A DNA stretch of 64,000 bases from Streptococcus macedonicus ACA-DC 198 (lineage in GTDB: Bacteria; Bacillota; Bacilli; Lactobacillales; Streptococcaceae), in assembly GCA_000283635.1 (NCBI GenBank), contig HE613569.1, positions 1,823,501-1,887,500 of the forward strand. Reading direction: 5' to 3'. A model generated the notes under the pieces. The model was not told the origin of the DNA and ran no database searches. It saw only the letters and a list, made by a program, of their open reading frames with translations. Positions 1,686-40,109 of the stretch are shown here, in pieces (positions within the stretch are counted from its first letter, which is position 1; every line of letters begins with the position of its first letter). The position numbers were made by a program, and so were the translations under genes.

Positions 1686-1690
1686 AAAAT

Positions 1691-1720
1691 AAAGCAGCTT
1701 GATTTTTCAAACTGCTTTTT
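1691..1720 (-). terminator. Terminator of the LysM-CHAP pseudogene
   Basis: AAAGCAGCTTGA and TCAAACTGCTTT form a 12-bp stem with one mismatch around a TTTT loop. The minus strand reads into this hairpin just after the stop of the broken hydrolase gene. Confidence 0.6.
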
Positions 1721-1738
1721 CTATGCTTTAAATTGATA

Positions 1739-2371
1739 TCAATAAGTCGTTGGATAAATGTAGCTAACTGTGCCTGCTGTTTGGCTATTTGTTGGGTCAA
1801 ACCAGCCACGGTAATTATCAATCCATTGTTTATCACCGTAGTTTGATTCTAGCACTTGAATTTCACCGCTGACACTAACAGCTGTTACATACGCTACGTG
1901 TCCGTAACTGTCAGGGTCAGTCCAACAAATAATCGCTCCAACCTCTGCTTGCGTTCCGACAGTATATCCTTGCAAGGCAGCATTAGCAGCCCAATCACCA
2001 GCATTCCCCCCCAGTTAGTTACTTGCCCATGTCGCTAACTCTTTAACTCCCCATGTGTATTGACCAACTGGATAAGTATTATCACTATTTGTACTAGTCT
2101 CTGTTGCTACTTCTTCAGTTGACGTTGTTTCTACCGAAAATTGGTCTGGTACTTGAAGTGTCTGACCAGGGACAATCGTATCATAAATTGACACGCCATC
2201 CAAAGCAGCCAAATCATAAACATCCATACCGTACAATTGCGATACACTATAAAAAGAATCTCCACTTTGTAGTGTATAAGTGTCAGCATCTGCATTTACT
2301 TGTAAAAATAGCAAAGCTCCTGAAACTGTTGCTGTTGCTAAAGCTAATTGTGTTTTTCGATTCATAAACAT
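1739..2371 (-). pseudogene. Broken LysM-CHAP secreted peptidoglycan hydrolase
   Basis: The reading frame has an N-terminal signal peptide (MNRKTQLALA onward), one LysM domain (YTLQSGDSFYSVSQLYG to PGQTLQVPD), a Ser/Thr-rich linker and a CHAP amidase domain. Two lesions are visible. The CHAP nucleophile motif, normally GQCTWGVK in streptococci, reads GQYTWGVK, so the catalytic Cys is Tyr (TAC). About ten codons on, an in-frame TAA follows WASN in a G-rich stretch where the family usually reads NYWGN; the frame then continues as GNAGDWAANAALQGY to the natural end. The catalytic His region (GHVAYV) survives. It should be inactive even if the stop were a sequencing error. The start is ATG 2371 or 2365; both follow a GGGAG Shine-Dalgarno. 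Confidence 0.8.
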
Positions 2372-2523
2372 CCGTCTCCCAATTTTGATTACCATTAGTA
2401 TATCAAGGAATTGTTACAAATTGTATAAAACCATGTAAGCGCTATATTTCAATTTATCACATCTTAAATATGACCATAAAGGCGCCATTGTCCATAAACC
2501 TAAAGACTATCTTGAATCCAAGC

Positions 2524-2550
2524 AAAAAACTCGCCATAAAAGCGAGCTTT
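2524..2550 (-). terminator. Terminator after gltD
   Basis: On the minus strand CTCGC and GCGAG pair around a seven-base loop and are followed by six T residues, just beyond the gltD stop codon. Confidence 0.75.
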
Positions 2551-2557
2551 CTTAGTT

Positions 2558-25584: not shown

Positions 25585-25619
25585 AAAATCATTCGACTAT
25601 TTCAGTCGAATGATTTTTT
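25583..25619. terminator. Bidirectional terminator between gsp and blpH
   Basis: A 16-bp perfect stem (AAAAAATCATTCGACT with its complement) encloses a five-base loop. It starts in the gsp stop codon and overlaps the last codons of blpH, so the kinase C-terminus is encoded inside the terminator. Confidence 0.85.
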
Positions 25620-26909
25620 GATTCGTATTGTTTGTCTAAAATGATAATTTTTGCTTGATGTTTGTACCGACATATTTGGATACTTTTTCAACATCTGGTT
25701 AACCGTTTTAAGACCAACACCTCGTCCAAAGCCCTTACTTGAATAATTCTTCTGATAAATCAATTCCACAGGAACTCGTTCTTCTTTTGTGGTGTTATCA
25801 ATAACTAGTAAATAGTCATCCCCTTGATAGAAACAAGCAATAATCATGGCAGGATTTTCAGCTTCCATAGCTGCTTCAATCGCATTATCACACAAAATCG
25901 ACAAAAGTCGCACATAGTCTAGTAATGGTATCTCAGGAAGTCCGATCTTATCCTTAACCTCTAATTGAACGGCAATGTGATAAGACTCAGCCTCTAAAAA
26001 CTTTGCTGATAATACACTTTTTATTGCATCATTGTCAATATTAATCAATCGTCCAATATCAAATTTTTTATTCTGAACAAGGTGCCCTGACTCTTCTAAT
26101 ACAGAATTGTAAATATTTCTGACCATATCCATATCATCTTGGTCAATTCCCTCTTTTAAACTCGCTAAGATATTAGCATAATCATGACGAAAAGCTCTTA
26201 GTTCTTCATATAAGCTTTCGATTTGTTTACTATACACTGACAAAGAATGCAGTTCTTGTTCTCGCGCTAACGACACTTCTTTCTCAAGCCAATTTTGATA
26301 AGAGCGATTCATATAAAACAGCATTAAAATGAAGAAAGTGAAATAGAGAACTACCAACCATTGGCGATAAACCAAGTTTGGAACACCACCATAAACTTCC
26401 ATACCTGTTAGAAATTCAATCATGACATAGTAAAACATCATTGTTACATCTGTAAATATTAGTTTCTTTCGTAGATTCTTTATCTCACTTAGTTCAATAA
26501 AAGTTTGAAAGTTAATTTTGAACAACTTCACCATCATAAAATACATCAGAACTATTGAAAATTCTACAATGACAAATAATAAATTATTTTTATCTAAATC
26601 GGTATAACTAAAATTAAAAAATGGAATAATAAAGAAGCTAATAATTCTTTTAAAAGCACTCTCTATAACCCATGGAATACTCCCATAAAATACGTATAGA
26701 GAAAAAGGCAAGGTTTTATCTCTCAAATAAGATAGAAGCATCAAAATTAAAATACGACCGATAATAGTGTAAAACCATGTAAAATCAATGACAAAGAAAG
26801 TAACAGCTATCGTTATTATTTCCCACAATTTCAGCTTTGCTCCTCTAACATTAGAGTAAATCAACATAATCACAGGATAGTAAGCTAGTTCACTTAGATA
26901 ATTACTCAT
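25602..26909 (-). CDS. blpH: Pheromone receptor histidine kinase, BlpH type
   Basis: 435-aa HPK10-family sensor kinase. Residues 1-205 are hydrophobic with about six or seven membrane helices. A coiled linker leads to the phospho-accepting His242 in LRAFRHDYANILASL. The ATPase domain has N-box LCDNAIEAA and G-box GFGRGVGLKTV, followed by the typical C-terminus YHFRQTIRIKK. It should detect the peptide encoded just downstream and phosphorylate BlpR. It starts 7 nt after the blpR stop. It appears intact. Confidence 0.9.
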   Translation of the reverse strand: MSNYLSELAYYPVIMLIYSNVRGAKLKLWEIITIAVTFFVIDFTWFYTIIGRILILMLLSYLRDKTLPFSLYVFYGSIPWVIESAFKRIISFFIIPFFNFSYTDLDKNNLLFVIVEFSIVLMYFMMVKLFKINFQTFIELSEIKNLRKKLIFTDVTMMFYYVMIEFLTGMEVYGGVPNLVYRQWLVVLYFTFFILMLFYMNRSYQNWLEKEVSLAREQELHSLSVYSKQIESLYEELRAFRHDYANILASLKEGIDQDDMDMVRNIYNSVLEESGHLVQNKKFDIGRLINIDNDAIKSVLSAKFLEAESYHIAVQLEVKDKIGLPEIPLLDYVRLLSILCDNAIEAAMEAENPAMIIACFYQGDDYLLVIDNTTKEERVPVELIYQKNYSSKGFGRGVGLKTVNQMLKKYPNMSVQTSSKNYHFRQTIRIKKSFD

Positions 26910-26916
26910 TAGCTTT

Positions 26917-27648
26917 TCACCTCATCTCATTTAATAGAGGTTTTATTTTATCTCTAGAAACTAGGCAAGTGTCCCCAGTTTCGAAATAAACACTTCGTGT
27001 CGCTCTATCAAATCTAACCACATTATCCACATTAATGATAAAAGAACGGTGACACTTGAAAAGACGTTTGTCTGATTTAGCAATCTCTGCAATCGTCGCA
27101 TAAAATTCCACTCTTTCATTTTTCGTATGCAAAATCACGCGGTGCACGGCAGGAGATGTTTCGAAATAAAGAATGTCACTATATAGAACGCGCACACGTG
27201 CTTTAGGAGTTTCAAATAAAAAAGAATTTTCGCCGAAATTATCATTTTGATGTTTCATTGCTTCCTTTAGGCACAACTCTATGCGTTCACTAAATGCTTG
27301 GTCATTCAGGTTCTTATCAATAAAATCAATTGCCCCTACTAACGCTTGGTAGGTCAGCAGCATAAATTCTGAATGAGTTGTTACAAAAACAATGATAGCT
27401 GTTGCATCTTTTTCACGAATAGCTTTAGCGACATCAATTCCTTGTTTTTCGTCGTCTCTGATTTCTAAATCAAGAAAGAAAATTTGATGCTCTCCTTTTT
27501 CAGTTGCCTTAGCTATAATCTCATTTGCAGAACTAAACACCTCTATTCTCTGATAGTCCCAATTATTTTTTGCCATAATGGTCGCAATCTCGCGTTCCAT
27601 ACGAAATTGCTGTATGATATTATCCTCTAGTACATAAATATCTAACAT
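26917..27648 (-). CDS. blpR: Response regulator, BlpR type
   Basis: 243 aa with an N-terminal receiver domain (acidic residues in LEDN, phospho-acceptor Asp60 in FFLDLEI, then VFVTTHSEF) and a C-terminal LytTR DNA-binding domain (about 140-243; FKCHRSFIINVDNV). LytTR proteins bind direct repeats 21-22 bp apart, as found at six promoters in this window. It is the middle gene of blpS-blpR-blpH. Confidence 0.92.
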   Translation of the reverse strand: MLDIYVLEDNIIQQFRMEREIATIMAKNNWDYQRIEVFSSANEIIAKATEKGEHQIFFLDLEIRDDEKQGIDVAKAIREKDATAIIVFVTTHSEFMLLTYQALVGAIDFIDKNLNDQAFSERIELCLKEAMKHQNDNFGENSFLFETPKARVRVLYSDILYFETSPAVHRVILHTKNERVEFYATIAEIAKSDKRLFKCHRSFIINVDNVVRFDRATRSVYFETGDTCLVSRDKIKPLLNEMR

Positions 27649-27664
27649 AAATCTCCTCTAAAAA

Positions 27665-27991
27665 TCAGTCATTTGAGATGATTTCTTTTAGTTGACTTCC
27701 TTTACTTCGTGCATAATGTACAGGTCGCTTTTCATCTCCAACATATAAAAGTCGCTGCTCTCTATCCATTATCCGTATTTTATCCCTATTTACCAAAGTA
27801 TCACGGTGGCACCTAAAGAACTGATGATATTCTCTTTCAATATCTTTCAATTGATGATAAATGTGATATTCCTCATCAGCGGTTACGACCTTGACCATAT
27901 GAATTTTTTCCTTAGAGACTTGAATAAAAAGGATATCGTCAATAGCCAATTTATAATCTCTCCTGTTAATTGTAAATTTAAAATATTTCAT
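27665..27991 (-). CDS. blpS: LytTR-domain-only regulator, BlpS type
   Basis: 108 aa consisting of a single LytTR DNA-binding domain (FFRCHRDTLVNRDKIRI) with no receiver. BlpS proteins of streptococcal Blp systems have this form, and in S. gallolyticus BlpS is reported to repress the circuit. Here it lies first in the blpSRH operon behind a quorum-sensing promoter, which would give negative feedback. The Shine-Dalgarno GGAGGG is 11 nt from the ATG. Confidence 0.85.
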   Translation of the reverse strand: MKYFKFTINRRDYKLAIDDILFIQVSKEKIHMVKVVTADEEYHIYHQLKDIEREYHQFFRCHRDTLVNRDKIRIMDREQRLLYVGDEKRPVHYARSKGSQLKEIISND

Positions 27992-28014
27992 AAATCATTA
28001 TTCCCTCCAATAGC

Positions 28015-28083
28015 ATTATAAAGGAAATATTGATAAAAAAAATCTTTAAGTCATAAACAGACAAAATAAGGTCACGAACGGTC
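28015..28083 (-). promoter_or_regulatory. Quorum-sensing promoter of blpS-blpR-blpH
   Basis: GTCATAA (28050) and GTCACGA (28071) lie 21 bp apart. The minus-strand -10 TATAAT (28015-28020) lies 27 bp from the proximal repeat. The geometry is identical to the other members, so the regulatory operon is itself predicted to be pheromone-controlled. Confidence 0.7.
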
Positions 28084-28150
28084 ACTTTTTATTGTATGAC
28101 GTTAAGTCAAGTTTTTAGAGTAACAAACGTAGAATTTTAATCTATTTATT

Positions 28151-29005
28151 TTAAGCACTTACCTTTTCAAATTGATTAGGTGTAAGATACCCTAAACTTT
28201 GATGGATTCGTTTTGAATTATAAAAGGCTTCGATGTACCAGAAAATACTCTGATAGGCTTCTTCAAAGTTCTTATATTTAAATTGATACACCCACTCTCT
28301 TTTTAAATGTCCATGCCAAGATTCAAGACTGGCATTATGATAAGGGTATCCCCTTCGACTGAAAGAGTGAGTCATCCCATAATACTTAAGCAACTCTTCA
28401 TACTCTAGACTCGTATACTGGGTTCCTTGGTCAGAATGAAGAATAACAGCTTCTGGATAGTCTTGTGATTTAATGGCCTTATTTAAAGTTCTTTGCACTA
28501 ATTCTACAGTCATTCGCTTGCCCAAATCCCAAGCAATGACTTTTTTAGTATAACGATCCATAATGGTTGAGAGATAAGCCCATCCTTGTTGAGTAGGAAT
28601 ATAAGTAATGTCGGTTGACCAAACCTTATTTTTCTTTGTAGGTTCAGTCTGTATGAGATTTTTTCGATTGATGTGATCACTTAGTGAGTATCCAGGCTTA
28701 AGTTTCTTAATGACTACAGACTTGAGTTGAAGTTGCTTCATTAGCTTCTGTACCAGTTTTAACCCGACTTTTTCCCCTTGTTTAAATAGAAGATGATGAA
28801 TTTTAGGAGCACCATAGATTCCTCGGTTAGCATTGAAGAGTTGAGAAATTTTGAGTGACAGGTATTGTCTCTTTAATTGAGTTTTAGATGGATGTCGGTT
28901 AATCCGTTCATAATAACTTGATTCAGGAACATCAAGGAGTTGACAGCTTAGTCTGACATTGAGTGCTAAAGTTTGTATGGTTTGAGCCATATCCGCAGCA
29001 CTCAC
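28151..29005 (-). CDS. IS3-family transposase OrfB (DDE integrase)
   Basis: 284 aa with an HTH_21-like N-terminus and an rve integrase core. DDE residues lie in WSTDITYIP, ILHSDQGTQYTS and NASLESWHGHLKRE. The start overlaps the orfA stop by 4 nt (ATGA), so it is made by coupling or by programmed -1 frameshifting. Confidence 0.93.
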   Translation of the reverse strand: MSAADMAQTIQTLALNVRLSCQLLDVPESSYYERINRHPSKTQLKRQYLSLKISQLFNANRGIYGAPKIHHLLFKQGEKVGLKLVQKLMKQLQLKSVVIKKLKPGYSLSDHINRKNLIQTEPTKKNKVWSTDITYIPTQQGWAYLSTIMDRYTKKVIAWDLGKRMTVELVQRTLNKAIKSQDYPEAVILHSDQGTQYTSLEYEELLKYYGMTHSFSRRGYPYHNASLESWHGHLKREWVYQFKYKNFEEAYQSIFWYIEAFYNSKRIHQSLGYLTPNQFEKVSA

Positions 29006-29262
29006 TTCTTTTTCTCGGCGAATATGGTCAATACTTTTTTTAAGATGTCTCGTTCTTCCTTAACTTTAGCCAGTTGTCTTTTTAATTCTAGAAAATCAGC
29101 TTTAGAGACGGAGCTTTCATTAGATTTAGAGTAGAGGTCTATCCATTTATAAATTGTTGCAGGGGCCACGTCGTATTCTTTAGACAGCTGGGTGACGGAT
29201 TGACCAGAATGATAGAAGGCGATAAGGGTTTCTTTAAATTCTTTTGAGTAGCGTTTTTTCAT
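29002..29262 (-). CDS. IS3-family transposase OrfA
   Basis: 86 aa. The helix-turn-helix (KRYSKEFKETLIAFYHSGQ to YDVAPATIYKWI) is followed by a leucine-zipper-like coiled coil (FLELKRQLAKVKEERDILKK), as in IS3-family first ORFs. Confidence 0.93.
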   Translation of the reverse strand: MKKRYSKEFKETLIAFYHSGQSVTQLSKEYDVAPATIYKWIDLYSKSNESSVSKADFLELKRQLAKVKEERDILKKVLTIFAEKKK

Positions 29263-29419
29263 GTTTTTGTCCTTTGTCTAAATTATACAATAGTGACTCT
29301 AAGATTTAAGGATAACATCAGTAACATAGTAAAATGATATTCCGATATACTAAAAAAACAAAAATTAAGTACACTAACAACTAGTGGATAATTTTTGTTT
29401 TTCCATATTAGAGAAGTGA

Positions 29420-29656
29420 TTAAAAGACATTGAGTAACAAACCTAATCCAAGAACAAAAAGAATAATCCCAGATAGGCCATCGCTCCATAAACTAGCCAA
29501 CAGAAACTGCGATGTGTTTTCATTGCCATTTGCTTTAGTGTCAGTTAACAACTTATAAGTGTTATAAAATTGAAATACTGCTATTAATAAGCACACGACA
29601 CCAACGATTTTAGTTACATAATAGCCTCTTTTATGCTTCAATATTATTTTGAACAA
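29420..29656 (-). CDS. Small membrane protein, paralogue of the 23166 gene; start uncertain
   Basis: Up to 78 aa with two hydrophobic helices (about 17-31 and 58-77) around the shared core YKLLTDTK, ENTSQFLL and SLWS. The gene at 23166-23423 has the same core. Its 5' end looks damaged: the Shine-Dalgarno AAAAGAGG and ATG found in the paralogue are present here, but the ATG is followed at once by TAA and the conserved frame runs one base off. Only TTG codons further upstream (29656, 29641) give an in-frame start. Confidence 0.45.
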   Translation of the reverse strand: MFKIILKHKRGYYVTKIVGVVCLLIAVFQFYNTYKLLTDTKANGNENTSQFLLASLWSDGLSGIILFVLGLGLLLNVF

Positions 29657-29658
29657 GT

Positions 29659-29766
29659 TTAGCTAATTGCTTTAGCTTGTTCACACATAAAGTATATATC
29701 TTTTTTGAGTTTTTTCGCCAAAGTCGACTTTCCAGAACCACTATAGCCAATGATTGCAATTTTCAA
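29659..29766 (-). pseudogene. P-loop fragment of a FlaR-like nucleoside kinase
   Basis: A TTG at 29766, after AAGGAGACATGAG, opens 35 codons starting LKIAIIGYSGSGKSTLAKKL, a textbook Walker A of the 'DNA topology modulation' FlaR/adenylate-kinase-like family (normally about 170 aa). The frame ends 15 codons later, so only the P-loop segment survives. It marks a deletion or recombination boundary at the left edge of the microcin region. Confidence 0.6.
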
Positions 29767-29857
29767 CTCATGTCTCCTTTTTCAATTCTGTTTCTTGACT
29801 ATTATCATAACATAAAGCAGATATCTTACGAGGCAATAATTCATGTTTAAACAAGCA

Positions 29858-29884
29858 AAAAAAGCCTTGTAAATCAAGGCTTTT
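29858..29884. terminator. Bidirectional hairpin terminator
   Basis: AAAGCCTTG and CAAGGCTTT pair around a five-base loop, with an A run on one side and a T run on the other. It separates the kinase fragment from the microcin operon. Confidence 0.75.
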
Positions 29885-29977
29885 CCTGTTGTATTTAGAT
29901 GCCCCCTACAGGTAGTTTATAGAGATTTATACATATAGAGAAAAGGATTTTTATTGATTTTATGCGATTTTAGTATC

Positions 29978-30039
29978 TTTATATTTTAAAAGAATTTATA
30001 TTTTAAAAGAATTTTTGTTTCGCAACAAATTCGCAACAA
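29978..30039. repeat. Two adjacent short tandem repeats downstream of the mcc operon
   Basis: TTTATATTTTAAAAGAA occurs twice in tandem (29978-29994, 29995-30011). It is followed by TTTCGCAACAA/ATTCGCAACAA in tandem (30018-30028, 30029-30039). Their position between an unrelated gene fragment and the AT-rich microcin operon suggests an integration or recombination junction. No integrase is nearby. Confidence 0.5.
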
Positions 30040-30072
30040 GTTTTGTTTCATATTTTATTTTATACTACATAG

Positions 30073-31242
30073 TTAAATATAATTTTTAATAAAGTAATTT
30101 AATAACAATAATATAGATAAAAGGGAGAGAATGAATGCTGAGCTTATCACAAGACTAACGCTCATATAATTCAGTAAAAAACTTAAAGCATATAAAATTA
30201 ATAATCCACTTATCCTAGAGATTGTTGACTTGAGAGATATTAACGAAGATATTGTTTTCGTTGATACCTGTTTATTAAAATATATATTTAGGACAAATTG
30301 AATTATATAAAATATAAAGACATATAAAATATAGGCTATAAGATAAACTACGGGCAAGTTTGATAAGAAAAATAAAGGCAAGGCAATAACTAATAAGAGA
30401 AATAATCGATAGTTAACTAACTTTTGTAGTTTGTCTGTATGTATAGAATAGGATAGGATACTGATTATTTGAAAAAGAAAATAGAAAGCTGTGAAATATC
30501 GTTTATCAATACCTTTTTCCAATAAAAAGGATTGCCACAATTGAAAATGTGCTTGAAAAAATAACTGTGTTAATAAGTCAAAAACAATAATAACTCTAAG
30601 AATACTATTTTCTTTTAGCTCTTTAAAACTTATAGAAATTTGTTTCTTAAAAGTATCTATATTTATTTTTTCTTTATAGTAATCTCTATCTTCTTGGAAG
30701 AAAAAGCCAATATCAAAAATAGATAAACAAACTAATATTATAGCAATAATATATATTTTTATACCTATCATAAAATATAGAATACCACCTATACCACTAC
30801 CGATAATCATAGATGCAAATTGAATTTTATTATCTTTAGAAATAAAAGATTCAATAAGTTTATCATTAGATGAACGTTTCAATTTATTTATTAAATAGGA
30901 ATCCAAAGTACCGCTTTCAAATGCTGCTGCAATCCCATATATAAACCAAGCTAAATATAAAAAATAGAAGTTGGAAGATATAAGGACAATAAGAAACATA
31001 ATTATTAATAAAACTCTTGATGATAAGTATAAATACTTTCTTGACCAATTGTCTGATAGCATTCCACTTGGAAATTCAAACAATATAATTGCTAGACTGT
31101 ATGCAGACTGTATTATTAATATTTGAGAAATTGATAGTCCTTTTTCTAGTAATAAGACTGTAAGTATTGAATGAGGTAGTGTATAGGCAACTGTAACTAA
31201 GAAAGTTGCAAATAGATAATGAAAAATTTGTTTTTTAATCAT
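30073..31242 (-). CDS. mccC: MFS exporter of the microcin C-like operon
   Basis: 389-aa major facilitator protein with about 12 membrane helices and motif A between helices 2 and 3 (FEFPSGMLSDNWSRKY). In microcin C systems the MFS protein MccC exports the peptide-nucleotide and gives partial self-immunity. The assignment rests on position: the start overlaps the end of the MccB-type gene by 8 nt. No other classical immunity gene (MccE, MccF) lies in the operon, so this exporter may be the only one. Strongly AT-rich, unlike the core genes. Confidence 0.75.
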   Translation of the reverse strand: MIKKQIFHYLFATFLVTVAYTLPHSILTVLLLEKGLSISQILIIQSAYSLAIILFEFPSGMLSDNWSRKYLYLSSRVLLIIMFLIVLISSNFYFLYLAWFIYGIAAAFESGTLDSYLINKLKRSSNDKLIESFISKDNKIQFASMIIGSGIGGILYFMIGIKIYIIAIILVCLSIFDIGFFFQEDRDYYKEKINIDTFKKQISISFKELKENSILRVIIVFDLLTQLFFQAHFQLWQSFLLEKGIDKRYFTAFYFLFQIISILSYSIHTDKLQKLVNYRLFLLLVIALPLFFLSNLPVVYLIAYILYVFIFYIIQFVLNIYFNKQVSTKTISSLISLKSTISRISGLLILYALSFLLNYMSVSLVISSAFILSLLSILLLLNYFIKNYI

Positions 31243-32290
31243 CTAGTGTGCCACCACATATACTACAGTTAGGGTCCTTGGTATTAGGTAGGACATACTT
31301 TTCAAAGGAGTTACTATTAATACCCACTCGAGCATTAAGGGATTTTATACTATCATTATTACCTGCAAAATATTGAATAATATCCGATAGCGCTAAATCA
31401 CATGCTAGTGAATTATTAATAATACTTGATGGTGAGGCATATTGATTATGCAACTGTGCCATTGTTTCATCATTAGAATTAATCTCGCCGTTGATTGAAA
31501 ATATTCCATAACAGAAAGGACAAGAAGTTTTGTGAGGAATAACAAAAGGACCGATTACAGCAATATCATTTAAATAACCAATATTTACAAATGGAACATT
31601 ATTGGTGAGAAAGTATTTTGATGATATTGAAACAGCAGTATCGTCATCTCCAGATAATATCCCAAACATTGAATTAGTATCTTTGCCCTCAAGAATATTA
31701 TTGATATTATTAGTACTTATAAACTCTGTATATACTTCAATATCAAGATTAGGATTACGTAATTTTAGTGCATCAGCAATTACTTCTGACTTGTATTTTC
31801 CGATATCGTTTATCGTAAATAGAAATTGTCTATTTAAGTTACTTCTTTCAATTTTATCACCGTCGATAAGAACTAATTTTTTAGGAGAGTAGACCGATAA
31901 AGCATAACTCATAAAGTTTCCAATGCCACCACAACCAATAATGACAAAGGTTGTTTCTTTAAATTTAGTTAGAACATCTTGAACGTTATTTATTATTAGG
32001 TCCAGATAAAGTCCGTTTTTAAATTCCATAGTATCTTCTTTTTGGAAAACAGCTTTACTAGTAGTGATTAATTTATTAGCTACTAATTTTTTAAAAACCG
32101 ACTTATCAATATTATTACTATCTAACCAGTTTAAGATTTCATCTTCATCTTTTTCTGTAAGTAGAAATTTTAGAATCTTTAGTGATAAATTGAATTCATC
32201 ATCATTAACTGTATATTGTTTACTGCCAATACCAATTAAGTTTTCATTAGATTTTAGTGTAGTAGCGGTTAAGCTTGTTTTGTATTTCAT
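31235..32290 (-). CDS. mccB: MccB-type peptide adenylyltransferase (E1-like, ThiF fold)
   Basis: 351 aa, the same size as E. coli MccB (350). MccB adenylates the C-terminal Asn of a heptapeptide via a succinimide, giving a stable N-P bond. Residues 1-100 form the peptide-clamp region. The E1-like domain has GCGGIGN (119-125), LIDGDKIERSNLNRQ (141-155, ATP and Mg residues) and GYLNDIAVIGP (238-248), which closely matches the MccB sequence GYVNDIAVFGP as I recall it. Zinc cysteines are CPFC (257-260) and CSIC (342-345). The family similarity reaches the last residues, favouring MccB over ThiF or MoeB. It follows the mccA hairpin and overlaps mccC. Confidence 0.88.
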   Translation of the reverse strand: MKYKTSLTATTLKSNENLIGIGSKQYTVNDDEFNLSLKILKFLLTEKDEDEILNWLDSNNIDKSVFKKLVANKLITTSKAVFQKEDTMEFKNGLYLDLIINNVQDVLTKFKETTFVIIGCGGIGNFMSYALSVYSPKKLVLIDGDKIERSNLNRQFLFTINDIGKYKSEVIADALKLRNPNLDIEVYTEFISTNNINNILEGKDTNSMFGILSGDDDTAVSISSKYFLTNNVPFVNIGYLNDIAVIGPFVIPHKTSCPFCYGIFSINGEINSNDETMAQLHNQYASPSSIINNSLACDLALSDIIQYFAGNNDSIKSLNARVGINSNSFEKYVLPNTKDPNCSICGGTLDD

Positions 32291-32313
32291 AAATTAATCC
32301 TTCCCATTTATAA

Positions 32314-32359
32314 TAAAAAAATCTATTTAACTATATCAAGAGATATAGTTAAATAGATT
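32314..32359 (-). terminator. 18-bp attenuator hairpin between mccA and mccB
   Basis: AATCTATTTAACTATATC and its exact complement enclose the loop AAGA (plus strand). On the minus strand the stem is followed by seven T. It would end most transcripts after mccA and let a minority continue into mccBC, the arrangement known in E. coli mcc, where peptide is needed in excess of enzyme. Confidence 0.88.
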
Positions 32360-32365
32360 AAACCG

Positions 32366-32385
32366 ATTAACCAAGTGTGGTTAAT
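32366..32385 (-). other. Small hairpin overlapping the mccA stop codon
   Basis: ATTAACCA and TGGTTAAT pair over 8 bp around a four-base loop, and the stem includes the mccA stop. It lies 6 bp before the large terminator hairpin and may stabilise the short mccA RNA. Confidence 0.6.
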
Positions 32386-32404
32386 TCAAGATTGTACCTT
32401 TCAT
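32381..32404 (-). CDS. mccA: Microcin C-like precursor heptapeptide MKGTILN
   Basis: Seven codons plus TAA, far below automatic gene-calling limits. The ATG at 32404 is preceded by GGAGGT with 7-nt spacing. The peptide MKGTILN has the length and the obligatory C-terminal Asn of E. coli MccA (MRTGNAN), and residue 2 is also basic. It is the first ORF after a consensus promoter and is followed by an mccB homologue. I infer that MccB adenylates Asn7 and that the product, after import and trimming, would inhibit aspartyl-tRNA synthetase. An alternative is a leader peptide, but the MccB neighbour makes the precursor reading far more likely. Confidence 0.82.
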   Translation of the reverse strand: MKGTILN

Positions 32405-32433
32405 ATTGGGTACCTCCTTCATATTTTTAGACA

Positions 32434-32462
32434 ATTATACACCGCATGAAAAATAATGTCAA
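32434..32462 (-). promoter_or_regulatory. mcc operon promoter
   Basis: On the minus strand TTGACA (32457-32462) and TATAAT (32434-32439) are exactly 17 bp apart, a full consensus promoter giving a leader of about 25 nt. There is no quorum-sensing repeat, so the operon looks constitutive or controlled by another factor. Confidence 0.88.
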
Positions 32463-32554
32463 TTCAAAAAATTCTGAACTTTACTTTTTTTAATTTTTGT
32501 TATTTGTTTTTATTTTCATATTGGTTGAATTATATTGTATCTAAAGTATTAAAT

Positions 32555-33871
32555 TGGTAGTGTAAAATAAGTTGTGTAAACACAAAAAAGGAATAAATCC
32601 GTTATAGTAGAGTTGCAAAACATTACTAGAAAGAGATTTATTCCTATGACTCAGTTTACCACAGACTTGCTTAACTTCCTAGCCCAAAAATGAGATATTG
32701 ATGAATCTTTCCGTATTTCTCTTGAAACAGCTATGAATGATCTGCTTCAGACAGAGTTATCAGCCTTTTTAGGGTATGAACTTTACGATAAAGTAGGCTA
32801 TAATTCTTGGAATAGTCGTAATGGAACGTATTCACGAAAATTTGAAACCAAATATGGGACTGTTCAGTTGAGTATTCCTAGAGATCGTAATGGGAACTTT
32901 AGTCCAGCTTTGCTTCCCGCTTATGGACGTCGAGATGACCACTTGGAAGAGATGGTTATCAAACTCTATCAAACCGGTGTAACGACTCGAGAAATTAGTG
33001 ATATCATCGAGCGAATGTATGGTCATCACTATAGTCCTGCCACAATTTCTAATATCTCAAAAGCAACTCAGGAGAATGTCGCTACTTTTCATGAGCGAAG
33101 CTTAGAAGCCAATTACTCTGTTTTATTTCTTGACGGAACCTATCTTCCATTAAGACGTGGAACCGTTAGTAAAGAATGTATTCATATCGCACTTGGCATT
33201 ACACCAGAAGGACAGAAGGCTGTTCTTGGATATGAAATCGCCCCAAATGAAAACAATGCTTCTTGGTCCACCCTGTTAGACAAGCTTCAAAACCAAGGAA
33301 TCCAACAGGTTTCTCTTGTAGTGACCGATGGCTTCAAGGGGCTTGAAGAGATTATCAATCAGGCTTACCCATTAGCTAAACAACAACGTTGCTTAATTCA
33401 TATTAGTCGAAATCTAGCTAGTAAAGTGAAACGAGCAGATAGAGCGGTTATTCTGGAGCAATTTAAAACGATTTATCGTGCTGAAAATTTAGAAATGGCA
33501 GTGCAAGCTTTAGAGAACTTTATCTCCGAATGGAAACCAAAGTATAGGAAAGTCATGGAAAGTTTGGAGAATACGGATAATCTTTTAACTTTTTATCAGT
33601 TTCCCTACCAGATTTGGCATAGCATTTATTCGACAAACCTCATTGAGTCTCTTAACAAAGAAATCAAACGTCAAACGAAAAAGAAGATTCATTTTTCCTA
33701 ACGAGGAGGCTCTGGGACGTTATTTAGTTACCCTGTTTGAAGATTATAATTTCAAGCAAAATCAACGCATCCATAAAGGGTTTGGCCAATGTGCTGACAC
33801 ACTTGAAAGCTTATTTGATTAACATTCTTCAACTCTACTTGAGTGTTTACACATAATTATTGACAGTATCA
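32555..33871 (+). mobile_element. IS256-family element, IS1191-like, inactivated
   Basis: About 1.3 kb between imperfect inverted repeats of 29 bp (about 21 matches; the last ten, GTGTAAACAC, are identical). The transposase it carries resembles, from memory, IS1191 of S. thermophilus. I see no exact 8-bp target duplication. It separates the microcin operon promoter from the two-peptide bacteriocin genes. Confidence 0.8.
32646..33822 (+). pseudogene. IS256-family transposase with a stop and a frameshift
   Basis: The frame begins MTQFTTDLLNFLAQK and hits TGA at codon 16, where the family has Gln. It reopens at ATG 32733 and reads the mutator-type core (VLFLDGTYLPLRRG, VVTDGFKGLEEII, QQRCLIHISRNL, YSTNLIESLNKEIK). 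An extra T in a T run near 33698 shifts it out of frame; the last 40 residues (NEEALGRYLVTLFEDYNFKQ onward) lie in another frame. It should be inactive unless supplied in trans. Confidence 0.85.
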
Positions 33872-33932
33872 ATAAAAATTATAGCTAAGATAATGCAGAA
33901 TAAAATAACAAAAATAGAATAGTACATAGAAA

Positions 33933-34034
33933 TTAATTTGCTTTATAACCTAAGTAAGCACCAGCTGCAGTAGTAACACCTAAATATACTAAATTAGCAA
34001 CAATAATACTATGTTTTTCAAGAATAGATTATAT
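33933..34034 (-). pseudogene. Hydrophobic peptide remnant next to the bacteriocin operon
   Basis: An open stretch without a start codon reads HSIIVANLVYLGVTTAAGAY and then LGYKAN before TAA. It resembles the tail of a small membrane or bacteriocin-like peptide but has no Shine-Dalgarno or ATG. It lies between the IS1191-like element and the putative immunity gene. Confidence 0.3.
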
Positions 34035-34052
34035 AATAGCTAAACTATATAT

Positions 34053-34202
34053 TTATGACGAAAAATATACAATTATTGTAAATAGTAGTGTTATTATAAA
34101 TAATCTAGGGTACATCTCTCTATGTTTTTTGTCAAACAAATAGAATAGAACATATATAATGACTTGAGCTACTACAAGCCTAATTAATTCACTCCCCATC
34201 AT
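34053..34202 (-). CDS. Putative bacteriocin immunity membrane protein
   Basis: 49 aa (MMGSELIRLVVAQVIIYVLF onward) with two hydrophobic helices separated by the basic turn DKKHREMYPR. It begins 4 nt after the stop of the second bacteriocin peptide, so translation is coupled. Two-peptide bacteriocins such as gallocin A carry a small membrane immunity protein at this position. The function is inferred from location only. Confidence 0.6.
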   Translation of the reverse strand: MMGSELIRLVVAQVIIYVLFYLFDKKHREMYPRLFIITLLFTIIVYFSS

Positions 34203-34206
34203 TATA

Positions 34207-34395
34207 TCAATTAAAATATGCTGCAGCTGCTCCTGCAGTACCACATACAACAGCATATCCTGTCGCGGTAACTGGACCGCCTGCCCATGCTAAAAGCATA
34301 CCTCCGAGACAGCCACCAACTGCTGCTCCAACTTTTCCTCCACCAGAAACTAACTCTAAATCTGAGTTTGTCATTTCATGAAATTTATCATTCAT
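34207..34395 (-). CDS. Two-peptide (class IIb) bacteriocin, second peptide
   Basis: 62 aa. The leader MNDKFHEMTNSDLELVSGG is a double-glycine leader. The mature part GKVGAAVGGCLGGMLLAWAG and onward is hydrophobic with several GxxxG/AxxxG motifs and two Cys. These motifs drive helix-helix pairing of class IIb partners in the target membrane. I take ATG 34395, after AAGAGGT. It follows the first peptide by 19 nt. Confidence 0.8.
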   Translation of the reverse strand: MNDKFHEMTNSDLELVSGGGKVGAAVGGCLGGMLLAWAGGPVTATGYAVVCGTAGAAAAYFN

Positions 34396-34414
34396 CCTCA
34401 AATACCTCTTTATA

Positions 34415-34648
34415 TCAAAGACTAGCACCTACACAATATAAGCCACCAGCTATTGCTCCAAAATGGGCTCCAACAAATGCTCCTGGAATTGAAGTAACAC
34501 CAAGCGTTGCCATACCACCTACAAATCCTGATCCTGCACCTGTTAATGAGCCACCAAAAATTGCATTAACACATTTGTTTCCACCTTCAACTTTAGCAAG
34601 TTCTGCGTCTGTCATTACATCAAATTGTTCAAAAGTTTTTGTATTCAT
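34415..34648 (-). CDS. Two-peptide (class IIb) bacteriocin, first peptide
   Basis: 77 aa. Leader MNTKTFEQFDVMTDAELAKVEGG ends in the Gly-Gly site (given as MNTKTFEQFDVMTDAELAKV then EGG). The core (NKCVNAIFGGSLTGAGSGFV onward) is rich in GxxxG and has two Cys that may form a disulfide. I use ATG 34648 after GGGAGGT. The leader and promoter DNA are nearly identical to those of the peptide at 36088-36318. It is the first gene of a pair with 34207-34395, driven by the operator at 34695-34761. Confidence 0.82.
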   Translation of the reverse strand: MNTKTFEQFDVMTDAELAKVEGGNKCVNAIFGGSLTGAGSGFVGGMATLGVTSIPGAFVGAHFGAIAGGLYCVGASL

Positions 34649-34694
34649 TTGAATACCTCCCAATAATTTTTTGTCATCGCGATTGACAAAATTT

Positions 34695-34761
34695 ATTTTA
34701 TCAGAATATTTCATCTTTTTTTGCCCAAGTCGTAATTTGTTGTTTTTAGGTCGTAAATGGT
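34695..34761 (-). promoter_or_regulatory. Quorum-sensing promoter of the two-peptide bacteriocin
   Basis: GTCGTAA occurs at 34729 and 34750, exactly 21 bp apart. The minus-strand -10 TAAAAT (34695-34700) lies 27 bp from the proximal repeat. No -35 is present. Confidence 0.78.
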
Positions 34762-34787
34762 AAAATTTTTTGTATTTTCATGATTTT

Positions 34788-34804
34788 TTGACCGTTTGCG
34801 ACTT
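34788..34804 (+). promoter_or_regulatory. Vestigial half of a divergent operator
   Basis: TGACCGTTTGCGACTT matches the first half-site of the plus-strand blpA promoter at 36460-36474, but the second half-site 21 bp on has decayed (ATATT in place of ACGAC). With the leader similarity, this shows the region is a diverged duplicate of the 36.0-36.5 kb region. Confidence 0.6.
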
Positions 34805-34872
34805 ATTTTAAAGTTTTTATATTCATACTATGTCTATTTTTATTGACCAAAGAAAACAAAAGTAATAAGGTG

Positions 34873-35519
34873 CTAGCTCAGAAAAATATTCCATGCCATA
34901 TGAACAAGAATTGATGGGTAAATTGACCGTGTTTTTCTGAAAAGAAGGGCTGGCTAAAATCAAGCCAACAACAACATATTTCTCAAATAAATCCAGTCTA
35001 AAACCATAGGAAAGCAAATGTGCAAATGAAAATAAAATAGCAGATAACAAACAATCGAGGAAATACTTTGATTTTTCAAAAAAGCTAGTCATTAAAACGC
35101 CACGGTAAAGTAATTCTTCTAAGATTGGACCCAACAACCAAGGGTTGTAAAGCCACCAAAAACGCCTGCGGTGAGTGACGGAAAAACACCAAATCAAAAT
35201 CAGGATTGGCCTCAACAAATAAAAGTTTGCCATAGTAGGCGTATATCAACCCAAAAGCAAGCAGAGTTAGTAAATAATCCAAAGGTTTTAGCGACGTTAT
35301 TTGAAACATTTCTGGTCTTATTCGTTTTAGGTAAATGACTAATACTACAACAAAAAGAATGGTTAAACTATTAAGAACAGGATAAAAATAATCTGTTGTT
35401 GGTAAATCAAATTGCCAAAAAATCATACTCATTATTTCAACAACACCAAATAATTCGAAAACGATAAAAAATAAAGCTAACAATTTTGGCACAAGCTTGG
35501 TTTTTAGCTTTTCTATCAT
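34873..35519 (-). pseudogene. CPBP (Abi) intramembrane protease, twice frameshifted
   Basis: The N-terminal 120 codons from MIEKLKTKLVPKLLALFF encode four or five membrane helices. A shift in a T run near 35165 moves the frame to one reading WWLYNPWLLGPILEELLYRG, with motif 1 EExxxR and then motif 2 FSFAHL. A second shift near 34950 moves it to a frame with motif 3 VHMAWN before TAG. All three CPBP motifs survive across frames, so the decay is recent or the indels are sequencing errors. CPBP proteins commonly give bacteriocin immunity in streptococcal loci. Confidence 0.75.
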
Positions 35520-35688
35520 AGATACTCCTTTTCAAAAAAGAAAGAAGCCAAGTAAGGTAGCTTAACTTCTTCCAGAATAAATTATTATTTTTTACCGCGA
35601 TTTTCTCTGCAAATATAAGGGAATGGGGTAATATGAATGGTATCTCTATTATGCTGCTTTAAACTGTAGTTTTAGATATAAATGAGAA

Positions 35689-36000
35689 TTATAGAGGATC
35701 CTCCTCAATAATTTGATAATGTTTATGAAATTGTTTCTTTGAAACAACACGATGGTTAGTAATATCTAAAAAATCTCCGATATACCCCACAGGATAAGAG
35801 GCGTAACCAGGATAACTCAATAAGCTAATTTTCAAATTAAATTTCATAGACGGATTTATTCCGCTCATAGAAATTATTAATTTATTATCGTTCCATTTCA
35901 GATAATTTTGTTTAAAAGCTTGCTGAACCCATACTGGTTGAACATTCGTCTTACTTATTTCCCATACATCAGACAGACGACCTTTATATAATGCTTTCAT
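35689..36000 (-). CDS. Unrecognised 103-aa protein between bacteriocin genes
   Basis: Starts MKALYKGRLSDVWEISKTNV. It has no signal peptide, membrane segment or Gly-Gly leader. It is moderately basic and beta-rich, with a PGYASYPVGYIGDFLDI segment in the middle. I do not recognise a family. It lies 87 bp downstream of the third peptide gene on the same strand, so it may be a cytosolic immunity or modification protein for that peptide. The gap 35520-35688 shows only a codon-like stretch without a start. Confidence 0.45.
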   Translation of the reverse strand: MKALYKGRLSDVWEISKTNVQPVWVQQAFKQNYLKWNDNKLIISMSGINPSMKFNLKISLLSYPGYASYPVGYIGDFLDITNHRVVSKKQFHKHYQIIEEDPL

Positions 36001-36087
36001 AATTTACATACCGTATTTCTTTTTTGCTAAAAAATTTCTAAATTATCTTTAAAATAACATTATTTAGAAATTTCTACAGACAAATTA

Positions 36088-36318
36088 TCAACAAGCATTA
36101 GGTGTTCCTCCAGTTCCTCCAGGATGGCAAGAACGAACAGGACCACGACGTGGATACTTTCCATTTAATTGGTCTACCACTTGACGAGGGTTAACAGGAT
36201 GCGCAGCATTACCTATAGCACCCAATACATCTCCAATCCATTCCATGCCTCCACCTTCAACTTTAGCAAGTTCTGCGTCTGTCATTACATCAAATTGTTC
36301 AAAAGTTTTTGTATTCAT
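36088..36318 (-). CDS. Third double-glycine peptide, unusual Pro/Gly-rich core
   Basis: 76 aa. The leader is the same as in the 34415-34648 gene (MNTKTFEQFDVMTDAELAKV then EGG). The mature part begins GMEWIGDVLGAIGNAAHPVN and ends in a Pro/Gly/Cys-rich tail (RSCHPGGTGGTPNAC). It lacks the hydrophobic GxxxG helices of class IIb peptides and has a basic, polar middle (RQVVDQLNGKYPRRGPVR). It could be an unusual class II bacteriocin or a non-bacteriocin secreted peptide. Controlled by the operator at 36365-36431. Confidence 0.7.
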   Translation of the reverse strand: MNTKTFEQFDVMTDAELAKVEGGGMEWIGDVLGAIGNAAHPVNPRQVVDQLNGKYPRRGPVRSCHPGGTGGTPNAC

Positions 36319-36364
36319 TTGAACACCTCCCAATAATATTTTGTCGTTGCAACTGACAAATTTT

Positions 36365-36431
36365 ATTCTAACAGATTGTGAGGTTAATGCACGCCCAAGT
36401 CGTAATTTGTCGTTTTTTAGTCGTAAATGGT
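36365..36431 (-). promoter_or_regulatory. Quorum-sensing promoter of the third peptide
   Basis: GTCGTAA occurs at 36399 and 36420, exactly 21 bp apart, and the minus-strand -10 TAGAAT (36365-36370) lies 27 bp from the proximal repeat. It is almost identical to the 34695-34761 promoter. Confidence 0.78.
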
Positions 36432-36456
36432 AAATTTTTTCATATTTTCATAATTT

Positions 36457-36527
36457 TTTGACCGTTTGCAACCTATTTTTGACTTTTTACGACTTGGGCG
36501 TTTTTTAATCTTGTTTTATGGCACAAT
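36457..36527 (+). promoter_or_regulatory. Quorum-sensing promoter of blpA-blpB
   Basis: GCAAC (36468) and ACGAC (36489) are the two half-site cores 21 bp apart, and CACAAT (36522-36527) is the -10, 27 bp beyond. It is divergent from the third-peptide promoter. Confidence 0.72.
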
Positions 36528-36559
36528 AGTTCTAGTTTCATTTTTAAAAGGGAAAGGTT

Positions 36560-38703
36560 ATGAGAAGATATAAATATGTTAGTCAGATTGATTTGCGAGA
36601 CTGTGGTGTGGCAGCTTTGGCATCAGTTGCCAAACATTATGGATCAGATTTCTCGTTGGCTCATTTGAGAGAATTAGCCAAAACAACTAAGGAAGGGACA
36701 ACAGCATTAGGGATAGTTGAGGCAGCTAAAGCAATCGGCTTTGAAACACGCGCCATTCAGGCTAATATGGAACTGTTTGATATGGCTGATATTCCCTATC
36801 CTTTTATTGTTCATGTTAATAAAGAAGGCAAACTCCCGCATTACTATGTTATCTACAAAGCCAAAAAAGATTATCTTATTATCGGTGACCCTGATTCGAG
36901 CGTTGGGGTCACTAAAATGTCCAAAGCGCATTTTGCCAAAGAATGGACTGGGGTTGCTATCTTTTTAGCGCCTGCTCCGCATTATCAACCGCATAAAGAT
37001 AAGAAAAATGGCTTAACAAGCTTTTTACCAATTATTTTCAAACAAAAGGTACTGCTAACTTATATCATTCTGGCAAGTTTGCTCGTGACCTTGATTAATA
37101 TTGTTGGTTCTTACTATTTGCAAGGAATCTTAGATGATTATATTCCTAATCATTTGCAATCCACTCTTGGCATTGTCTCGGTTGGGTTGATTGTAACTTA
37201 TATAATGCAACAAATCATGAGCTTTTCACAAAATTATTTACTTGTTGTGCTGAGCCAACGATTAACGATTGACGTGATTTTGTCTTATATTCGTCACATT
37301 TTTGAATTGCCCATGTCCTTTTTTGCCACAAGGCGGACAGGTGAAGTTATTTCACGTTTCACCGATGCTAACTCGATTATTGATGTACTGGCATCAACGA
37401 TTCTCTCTTTATTTTTAGATGTGAGTATTTTGTTTATTGTCGGAAGTGTCTTAATTCTGCAAAATGCCAATCTTTTTTTCATCACCTTAATAGCATTTCC
37501 TATCTATGTATTATTTTGGCTTTTATGAAACCTTTTGAGCGAATGAATCACGATGTCATGCAAGCCAATTCTATGGTTAGCTCTGCGATTATCGAAGATA
37601 TCAATGGTATTGAAACGATTAAATCTTTGACTAGTGAGGAAGTCCGTTATCAAAATATTGACCGTGAATTTGTGGATTATTTGGATAAAAGTTTTACGCT
37701 TAGTAAGTATGAAGCTGTGCAAACGTCGTTAAAACAGGGAGCACAGCTGATTTTAAACGTTGTCATTCTCTGGTATGGTTCACATTTAGTCATGACTGGG
37801 AACATTTCAGTAGGACAATTGATTACTTACAGTACGCTTCTGTCGTACTTTACAACGCCAATGGAAAATATTATTAATCTGCAAACCAAACTACAATCTG
37901 CCAAAGTAGCTAACAATCGTCTCAACGAAGTTTACTTAGTGTCGTCTGAATTTGATGGCAAACAACTCTTAAATGACAGCCATTTTCTACAAGGAGATAT
38001 TGTTTTTGATGATGTTTCTTATAAATATGGTTTTGGTCGTGACACGCTGAGTCATGTGAATTTACGCATTAAGAAAGGTGAAAAAATTAGCCTAGTTGGT
38101 ATCAGCGGTTCTGGTAAGACAACCTTAGCTAAAATGATTGTCAATTTTTACACACCTAACCATGGACAGATTACCCTTGGTGGCTACGATTTAAAAACCA
38201 TTGATAAAAAAGCCATTCGCCAATACATTAATTACCTACCACAACAGTCTTACGTCTTTTCAGGGACGATTTTAGAAAATTTAACCTTGGGAGCACCTGA
38301 CAATATTACGCAAGAAGAAATTCTGAATGCTTGTGAAATCGCTGAAATCCGTGCTGATATTGAATCGATGCCACTAGCATACCATACCGAACTTTCAGAT
38401 GGTGCTGGGTTATCTGGTGGGCAAAAGCAACGTTTAGCTTTAGCACGCGCTTTACTGACACAAGCTCCCGTCTTGATTTTAGATGAAGCCACAAGTGGTC
38501 TTGATGTTCTAACGGAAAAACGTGTGATTAAAAATTTACTATCTCTCACAGACAAGACTATTATTTTTGTTGCCCACCGTTTGAGCATTGCTGAACAATC
38601 TGACCGTGTCATTGTTCTAGATAAAGGACAAGTCATCGAAGAAGGGCATCATAAACAACTCATCCAAAATCAAGGTTTCTATGCACAGTTATTTCATGAA
38701 TAA
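36560..38703 (+). pseudogene. blpA: C39-peptidase ABC exporter split by a frameshift (BlpA/ComA type)
   Basis: Exporter that cleaves Gly-Gly leaders during secretion of pheromone and bacteriocins. The first frame (36560-37528) has the peptidase domain with Cys15 (LRDCGVAAL), a catalytic His in LPHYYVIYK and Asp in IIGDPD, then four or five membrane helices. It ends at TGA after VLFWLL. The second frame (from about 37516) continues AFMKPFERMNHDVM through Walker A GISGSGKTT, signature LSGGQKQR and Walker B VLILDEATSGLD. Loss of one G in TTTTGGG would explain it. If real, neither pheromone nor bacteriocins leave through this transporter. Confidence 0.85.
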
Positions 38704-38714
38704 AAGGAGACCAT

Positions 38715-40109
38715 ATGAATCCTAAATTATTTCAATCTGCTGAATTTTATCATAGGCGTTATCATAATTTTGCGACTGTCTTAGTGATTCCAATGACACT
38801 CTTGGCCTTTTTTCTCCTTGCCTTTTCTCTCATTGGTAAAAAAGAAATTACCGTTACGGCACTTGGTAGTATTAGACCAACAAAAGTCATCGCTGTTGTT
38901 CAATCAAGTAGCAATAACACCGTTTTAACCAATAATCTTGGTGAAAATAAGGCAGTCAAAAAGGGGGATCTACTCATCCAATACTCCGACAAATTGGAAG
39001 ATAGTCAACTTAATGCCATTCAAACACAAATCGAAAGATATGAACGTCAACAAGAAGCACTCAATCAATTGAAAGAAAGTCTAAAGCAAGGACAAAATCT
39101 TTTTACAGGTGATGATGAATTTGGTTATTCAGCAACCGTTGATTTTTTTTTAAATCAATCTCAAACAATTACTGCTCAAGTTTCTCAATCAAACCAATCA
39201 GTTGCTAAACAAAAAGCCGGTGTCAACCAAGCAAATGCAGCTATCGCCAATCAGATTGCCAACCTACAAACCCAAGCTAGTCAATATCAAGAGGTTAAAG
39301 ATGCTATTCAAACTGATAAAACAAACGTATCTGGCAATAATCCATATGCAACTACTCTTAATAGCTATCTTAGCCAAATTCAAACAATTGATACACAAAA
39401 CAGTTCAACTGACAACAATTCTGCTAGCAAAGAAAGCATTAAAAATCACTTTTTAACAGACCTACAAGGGCAGATTGATAGCATTAATGCCTCTATCTCT
39501 AGTTTGCAAACACAAGCTGCTTCCAATTATTCAACGGGAAGTTATGACATTAGTGCCACTAATCAAATTGAAAGCTTGCGTCAGCAGGAATTGACACAAG
39601 CTGAAACACAACTTACGCAAATTACTCAAGAAAAAGAAAATTTGCAAGCGCAGCTTGACCAGACAAATCTCTCCAAAGCTGACACTGTTTTAAAAGCTAG
39701 TCAAAGTGGCATTTTACATGTTTCTGATGAATTTGAAGGGCAAACGCTCTTGCCGCAAGGCAGTCAGATTGCAGAGATTTACCCGGATATTGCCAAAACA
39801 CAGCAAGTCGCTATCCGCTATTACGTTGACTCCACTCATGTTAGTCAATTGAAAAAAGGACAGACTGTTCGCCTAACCCTTGAAAAAATTAGCAATCACG
39901 CCATTGTTATCACTGGCAAAATCAGTAAAATTGCAAGTTCTGCCACACAAACCAAAGAAGGAAATGTCTTTGAGGTGACAGCACTAGCCACCGTTGATAA
40001 ACAAGATAGCTCCAAATTAAAATATGGTTTACAAGGCAAAACAATCAGCACTATCGGCAAAAAAACTTTCTTTAATTATTACAAAGACAAGCTATTAAAA
40101 GATTTTTGA
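38715..40109 (+). CDS. blpB: Bacteriocin secretion accessory protein (HlyD-like, BlpB type)
   Basis: 464 aa with one N-terminal membrane anchor (about residues 22-45; TLLAFFLLAFSLIGKKEITV), a long periplasm-side coiled coil (about 95-330, Gln/Asn/Ser-rich) and a C-terminal lipoyl/beta-barrel part (ILHVSDEFEGQTLLPQGSQI, RYYVDSTHVSQLKKGQTVRL). It works with the ABC exporter to move Gly-Gly peptides. It lies 11 nt after blpA. Intact, unlike its partner. Confidence 0.88.
   Translation: MNPKLFQSAEFYHRRYHNFATVLVIPMTLLAFFLLAFSLIGKKEITVTALGSIRPTKVIAVVQSSSNNTVLTNNLGENKAVKKGDLLIQYSDKLEDSQLNAIQTQIERYERQQEALNQLKESLKQGQNLFTGDDEFGYSATVDFFLNQSQTITAQVSQSNQSVAKQKAGVNQANAAIANQIANLQTQASQYQEVKDAIQTDKTNVSGNNPYATTLNSYLSQIQTIDTQNSSTDNNSASKESIKNHFLTDLQGQIDSINASISSLQTQAASNYSTGSYDISATNQIESLRQQELTQAETQLTQITQEKENLQAQLDQTNLSKADTVLKASQSGILHVSDEFEGQTLLPQGSQIAEIYPDIAKTQQVAIRYYVDSTHVSQLKKGQTVRLTLEKISNHAIVITGKISKIASSATQTKEGNVFEVTALATVDKQDSSKLKYGLQGKTISTIGKKTFFNYYKDKLLKDF

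Follow-up and report, generated by a model that had tools for sequence, protein, structure and literature searches.

Three-gene clusters have been described as the minimal pathway of the microcin C family (section 8 of PMC12250964; passages of PMC6495379). In the Escherichia coli system, transcription stops at a hairpin, aided by the ribosome, which leaves a surplus of mccA RNA (passages of PMC6495379), and the N-terminal part of MccB clamps the peptide (passages of PMC12250964). Here, we analyze a stretch of 64,000 nucleotides from Streptococcus macedonicus ACA-DC 198 (contig HE613569.1, positions 1,823,501 to 1,887,500; hereafter the window), in which we recognize, with high confidence, a minimal microcin C-type mccABC operon of the heptapeptide type. 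The operon is genuine and intact; its kind is already known, and its precursor peptide is its own. Among the 120 of 4860 matches listed for the KsgA of this genome are proteins assigned to S. infantarius, S. pasteurianus and S. gallolyticus at 98-99% identity, which makes membership in the S. bovis/S. equinus group probable. Judging from the sequence, the cassette very probably turns a seven-residue peptide into a Trojan horse peptide-nucleotide antibiotic. The precursor MKGTILN was not found in the literature searched, nor was an account of the streptococcal operon, including under microcin C together with S. gallolyticus, and Supplementary Table S1 of PMC6495379 may list one of the peptides discussed below.

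All elements of the operon lie on the minus strand, within 32462-30073. The promoter (TTGACA-17-TATAAT, 32434..32462) carries 12 of 12 consensus bases and is the sole site of that quality among 15 promoter-like sites in 29800-32700; because shuffles yield 21.4 sites of any quality, only the quality of this promoter, and not the number of sites, is notable. Downstream, an AAGGAGG Shine-Dalgarno sequence precedes mccA (32381..32404), which reads ATG AAA GGT ACA ATC TTG AAT TAA and encodes MKGTILN. The mccA-mccB spacer holds a terminator-like hairpin (32320..32359) that starts 21 nt after mccA and consists of a perfect 18-bp inverted repeat with a 4-nt loop, followed by a T run; the spacer folds at -25.2 kcal/mol (z score -5.36), and none of 200 shuffles is equally good. 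The mccB gene (31235..32290) encodes, by homology, a 351-residue peptide nucleotidyltransferase with an E1/ThiF fold, an N-terminal peptide-clamp region and two cysteine pairs, and it overlaps by 8 nt with mccC (30073..31242), a 389-residue exporter of the major facilitator superfamily (MFS), again by homology. A sequence-only reading of the window had listed the promoter, the Shine-Dalgarno sequence, the MKGTILN open reading frame (ORF), the hairpin, the 351-residue ORF and the overlapping MFS ORF, and all of them were found as claimed.

The 351-residue protein, which has a single ThiF domain and is the sole PF00899 match in the genome, is identified as an MccB by several lines of evidence. 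In a PDB sequence search, MccB comes out on top, ahead by ~21 orders of magnitude, with PaaA (5ff5) as a weaker match (E 5.6e-12). Its closest full-length matches include a cluster at 97% that carries the name S. gallolyticus, and the protein cluster P0001 comprises 227 member sequences; H. pylori MccB is 42-43% identical over 98% of the length, and E. coli MccB 34.7% identical across 251 residues. The protein stays below every ThiF and MoeB equivalog cut-off (best 79.1 bits versus 159). In trees of 42 and 34 rows, the protein groups with the MccBs of E. coli, H. pylori and the MHRIMKN locus, with support of 100/99 in both; within this clade, E. coli MccB forms a separate, poorly supported side group. 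The outgroup of these trees, built without PaaA and EnfB types, is thin (E. coli MoeB and ThiF, and P0111); the 34-row tree adds two methyltransferase-fused MccBs, and the 42-row tree also held the long-branched P0109 and P0115. A clade that joins the window-side MccBs with MoeB, ThiF and P0111 but leaves out E. coli MccB was rejected by the approximately unbiased (AU) test (p-AU 0.007; 27 rows versus 7), for which the grouping was fixed after the first trees and the question predated them.

Structure prediction agrees with the trees. An AlphaFold2 model (predicted local distance difference test 93.2, predicted template modelling score 0.92) aligns with seven MccB structures over residues 1 to 346-351 in VIA-align, whereas ThiF, MoeB and SUMO E1 structures match it only from residue 85-103 onward; thus, in the modelled fold, the N-terminal clamp region of E. 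coli MccB has a counterpart in the window protein. The letters of this region are poorly conserved, with 19 of 100 residues shared with E. coli and 42 of 100 with H. pylori. Across 51 aligned rows, 19 columns are invariant, and four cysteines stand out: C257 and C260 (51/51), C342 (50/51) and C345 (48/51); we take these positions to be catalytic residues or zinc ligands. A ThiF, MoeB or housekeeping role is ruled out by the equivalog scores, the trees, the AU test and the ranges of the structural matches. The sequence-only reading had staked itself beforehand on the protein grouping with MccB and not with ThiF or MoeB, which is the outcome of the trees, the AU test and the structure prediction.

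As for the precursor gene, the bare ATG-x5-Asn-TAA pattern is not rare (3 occurrences in the window against 3.95 expected from shuffles), and a heptapeptide ORF significant in itself was therefore rejected; the claim for mccA is made because of its placement and conservation. Exactly one ATG-x5-Asn-stop ORF lies within 250 nt upstream of mccB in all six loci tested (the window, L009, L010, L014, L015 and, as a positive control, E. coli L018, where it reads MRTGNAN), and at least one appears in 25-65 of 2000 shuffles. The position of mccA also matches that in the orthologous loci L008, L009, L010, L014 and L015. Asn-ended seven-codon genes with a Shine-Dalgarno-like stretch occur in the window and genome G269 (MKGTILN) and in G164 (MKGTVRN), and the wider set adds G009 (MIGPIQN), G291 (MHRIMKN) and H. 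pylori pUM171 (MKLSYRN). The window thus has the mark of the class, a seven-codon gene with a strong Shine-Dalgarno sequence and a C-terminal Asn directly upstream of mccB. Conservation of the heptapeptide ORF upstream of orthologues, as had been anticipated, holds for length, position and final Asn and fails for the residue letters, which vary; variable letters at constant heptapeptide length are the rule in the major MccB clade, according to section 6 of PMC6495379. As in the window, no shuffle of 200 matches the spacer fold in G164 and G291, and 3 of 200 do so in G009 and E. coli.

Further marks of the class are likewise present: an MFS exporter gene after mccB, the terminator-like hairpin between mccA and mccB, and the E1-type active-site residues and cysteine pairs. 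Pfam MFS_1 covers residues 10-348 of MccC. Its identity is 49% with the G009 protein, 40% with the one encoded on the H. pylori plasmid and 38% with the G291 protein, and the order mccA-mccB-mccC is common to G269, G164, G009, G291 and H. pylori.

The promoter, the seven-codon Asn-ended gene, the hairpin, MccB and the MFS exporter can be read from the DNA itself, and the steps that would connect them are drawn from the family. By analogy, the hairpin likely acts as in E. coli, giving an mccA RNA surplus: most transcripts would end there, so that the short mccA mRNA would exceed the enzyme mRNA. The N-terminal clamp of MccB would bind formyl-MKGTILN, and the enzyme would activate the terminal Asn with adenosine triphosphate, via a succinimide, to yield a peptide-adenosine monophosphate (AMP) with an N-P bond, which the MFS protein would export. 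A target cell would import the conjugate as a peptide, its aminopeptidases would trim it, and the leftover aspartamide-adenylate would block aspartyl-tRNA synthetase. The operon would then be a movable competition cassette, lodged here in a bacteriocin island.

As for the nucleotide, the sequence-only reading had allowed a simple peptide-AMP or peptide-cytidine monophosphate (CMP). Of these, the second is the less likely product, because the window MccB has no fused methyltransferase domain, unlike those of loci L034 and L011, and belongs to a different clade. The methyltransferase-fused MccB of the cytidine type is thus absent, although an unfused methyltransferase gene was not searched for genome-wide. 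The same reading had proposed that MccD, MccE and MccF are missing at the locus, which the neighbors bear out: mccD, mccE and mccF do not lie beside the operon, where transposases and bacteriocin genes are found instead (MccD and MccE were not searched genome-wide), and the locus does not amount to a complete cluster of the E. coli type (mccABCDE + mccF). A single S66 (MccF-family) peptidase is encoded elsewhere in the genome, unlinked to the operon and ~0.18 Mb off, at about 2,035,900 of G000:C1. By sequence it is nearest to 4h1h (Lmo1638) and 4e5s (MccF-like) and farther from E. coli MccF, and it scores 92.8 bits for muramoyltetrapeptide carboxypeptidase, below the cut-off of 378. Since the S66 family is common (46 of 59 genomes, this one included) and missing from the mcc-bearing G291, this peptidase may be a source of background tolerance and is not a dedicated partner of the operon. 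Export, which the sequence-only reading had put forward as the main immunity, may have that role.

A number of observations weigh against the assignment. The exporter shares 22.7% identity with E. coli MccC (E 4e-10), and the curated family that it matches best is the H. pylori efflux family HP1165 (256.8 bits, cut-off 700), so that its cargo is assigned from synteny and the 40% identity to the H. pylori gene. No known immunity gene adjoins the operon. Some ubiquitin E1 rows also reach the first residues of the MccB model, by range only; the spacer of H. pylori folds weakly (z score -1.36, 22 of 200 shuffles equally good); and an in-frame ATG upstream of mccA could yield a 13-residue peptide. 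The product, expression and activity of the operon are predictions.

The operon lies within a bacteriocin island, between two transposase genes, neither of which we assign a role in its function: a Mutator/IS256-family transposase ORF on the plus strand (32733..33701) and, on the other flank, an IS3-like transposase pair with HTH_Tnp_1 and an rve integrase core on the minus strand (28151..29262). The island (25602-40109) contains a GHKL kinase, LytTR regulators, a C39 ATP-binding cassette transporter and an HlyD-like protein, together with two bacteriocin peptides, one of class IIc type (34415-34714) and a weaker match (36088-36333) that falls below the PF10439 cut-off. A single Rfam match was obtained in 29000-36500, the Spy392987 antisense RNA at 32585-32647 on the minus strand (72.8 bits), located just ahead of the IS256-type transposase gene, on the upstream side of the mccA promoter; as a guess, it is perhaps a transposase-silencing RNA. 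No tRNA was found in 28000-36000.

The operon shows signs of transfer between genomes. The block 29714-33870 recurs in G269 at 98.6% (L035 6793-10930 and 11374-11576), where its neighbors are an adenylosuccinate synthetase gene and a P-loop-type gene present in two copies; of the P-loop-type gene, the window retains only a short piece near 29714, which suggests, at the sequence level, that the block came into the bacteriocin island from a G269-like site. G164 shares only 30070-32526, with a piece of an IS630-type transposase on one side and a piece of a DDE transposase on the other, adjacent to an ftsY-like signal recognition particle GTPase gene. Given the differing flanks in the three genomes, the shared unit is the operon with ~64 nt upstream of its promoter.

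Such surroundings raise the possibility that the operon is a silent or decaying passenger of insertion sequences, a reading consistent with the shortening of the adjoining transposase ORF (322 residues against 362 in the L035 copy) and with the splitting of the nearby C39 transporter into two frames (36560-37528 and 37516-38703). We consider it unlikely, since the mcc frames are open in the window, G269 and G164, the promoter, Shine-Dalgarno sequence and hairpin are retained, and mccB and mccC differ from those of G164 at 34/1048 and 20/1170 nt, respectively, gap-free. Slightly less probable still is that the MccB-modified heptapeptide is real and serves as a signal or another metabolite, not as an antibiotic. 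The activity of the modified peptide is a prediction only; quorum-sensing-type genes lie near the operon (the GHKL kinase at 25602-26909 and the LytTR regulators at 26917-27648 and 27665-27991); and upstream of L011, a different ThiF gene from the genus, lies a short hydrophobic peptide that by eye resembles a pheromone of the SHP type. The closest characterized relatives, however, produce peptide-nucleotides, and the exporter, the final Asn and the bacteriocin island around the operon likewise speak for an antibiotic. It is very improbable that the precursor is instead the 13-mer MKEVPNMKGTILN, started at the upstream in-frame ATG found in the window, G269 and G164, as the two ATGs are separated by the strong Shine-Dalgarno sequence, seven residues are obtained in G009 (MIGPIQN) and the remaining loci, and the major MccB clade as a rule has heptapeptides (PMC6495379, section 6).

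Within the heptapeptide operon, the precursor differs more than its surroundings. A comparison of the window with G164 shows 5 differences in the 24 nt of mccA, 2 of them silent and 3 altering the encoded residues (I to V, L to R), against 59 in the 2367 nt of the remaining unit, made up of mccB, mccC, the promoter and the spacer (Fisher p 3.4e-4); set against mccB alone (34/1048), p is 1.3e-3. Loci L002 and L009 were rejected as two cases: they lie on the same 33489-base contig, and MKGTVRN therefore counts as one independent comparison, on which the excess of differences rests and which a single recombination event could explain. Window/G269 and G164 are near-identical in enzyme, exporter, promoter and hairpin, and the change from MKGTILN to MKGTVRN keeps MKGT and the final Asn. 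We tentatively raise the idea, which we regard as rather doubtful, that the precursor gene is under selection to diversify in a movable cassette, with one MccB serving several natural peptides. If so, the Trojan horses of close relatives would differ and would be directed at distinct uptake systems. With the operon, the microcin C family gains the streptococcal heptapeptides MKGTILN, MKGTVRN and MIGPIQN together with their matching enzymes, in a three-gene format that lends itself to testing. MKGTILN and MKGTVRN, a natural pair whose enzymes are 96% identical, would reveal which precursor positions MccB tolerates, a matter of relevance for peptide-nucleotide antibiotics and for the use of MccB in protein labelling (passages of PMC13255007).

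The operon is sparsely distributed. At E 1e-25, 5 of 284 genomes of the genus match (the window's own included), four with the heptapeptide operon (window, G269, G164, G009) and the fifth, G238, with the methyltransferase-fused type. In the order, class and phylum samples, which overlap, matches number 3 of 395 (window, G009, G291), 3 of 398 at 1e-50 with alignment (window, G291, fused G1200) and 1 of 398 (the window itself); the genus of G291 gives 1 of 75. Among plasmid records, 75 of 72,556 match, 28 of them from Helicobacter and 27 from Escherichia; 17 Borrelia/Borreliella records encode a 34.7-37.6% identical MccB relative, many in 2-3 pieces. Viral or phage carriage was rejected: none of 50,697 phage records matches at 1e-20 (tblastn), viral contigs hold no mccA DNA pattern, and the viral scan gave two loci (39% over 82 residues). 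A Streptococcus thermophilus cluster is reportedly among the set of Bantysh 2014.

Among known systems, the cytidine type (L034, which we ourselves label the B. amyloliquefaciens class) shares the E1-like adenylyltransferase superfamily and differs in its 620-residue protein of ThiF plus a C-terminal methyltransferase domain and in its clade. The window's genus has a similar protein at L011 (G238:C11, ~1366-3198), with 600 residues, a ThiF part and a C-terminal methyltransferase domain, which groups with the fused MccB of L034 (support 97/94) and, by its sequence, is a possible cytidine-type microcin C enzyme; the SHP-like peptide upstream of it has 23 residues, and no Asn-ended precursor with a clear Shine-Dalgarno sequence was found there. 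E. coli microcin C (mccABCDE + mccF; MRTGNAN; pRPEC180_47) shares with the window the MccB fold, the active-site and cysteine residues, the hairpin after mccA and the MFS gene that comes next, and differs in the presence of mccD, mccE and mccF and in the low identity of MccB and MccC given above. The Lactobacillus mccABC (MHRIMKN; L014/L038), which we take to be that of L. johnsonii, likewise has three genes and a hairpin (0/200 shuffles), with an MccB 47% identical to that of the window. Near it in G291 stand two Rgg_C + HTH genes (L038 7699-8499 and 15966-16775, the latter scoring barely at the Rgg_C cut-off), which hints at quorum control of some mcc operons; no such gene was noticed beside the window operon. 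The H. pylori plasmid mccABC (pHel4/pHPF30 type, MKLSYRN; pUM171 copy) differs in its letters, its weak spacer fold and its setting, since pUM171 is a mobilizable plasmid and the window operon is chromosomal, between insertion sequence elements. It has the same three-gene order, with 43% identity in MccB and 40% in the MFS protein, and its mccA product is, as here, a seven-residue, Asn-ended peptide (passages of PMC3120642).
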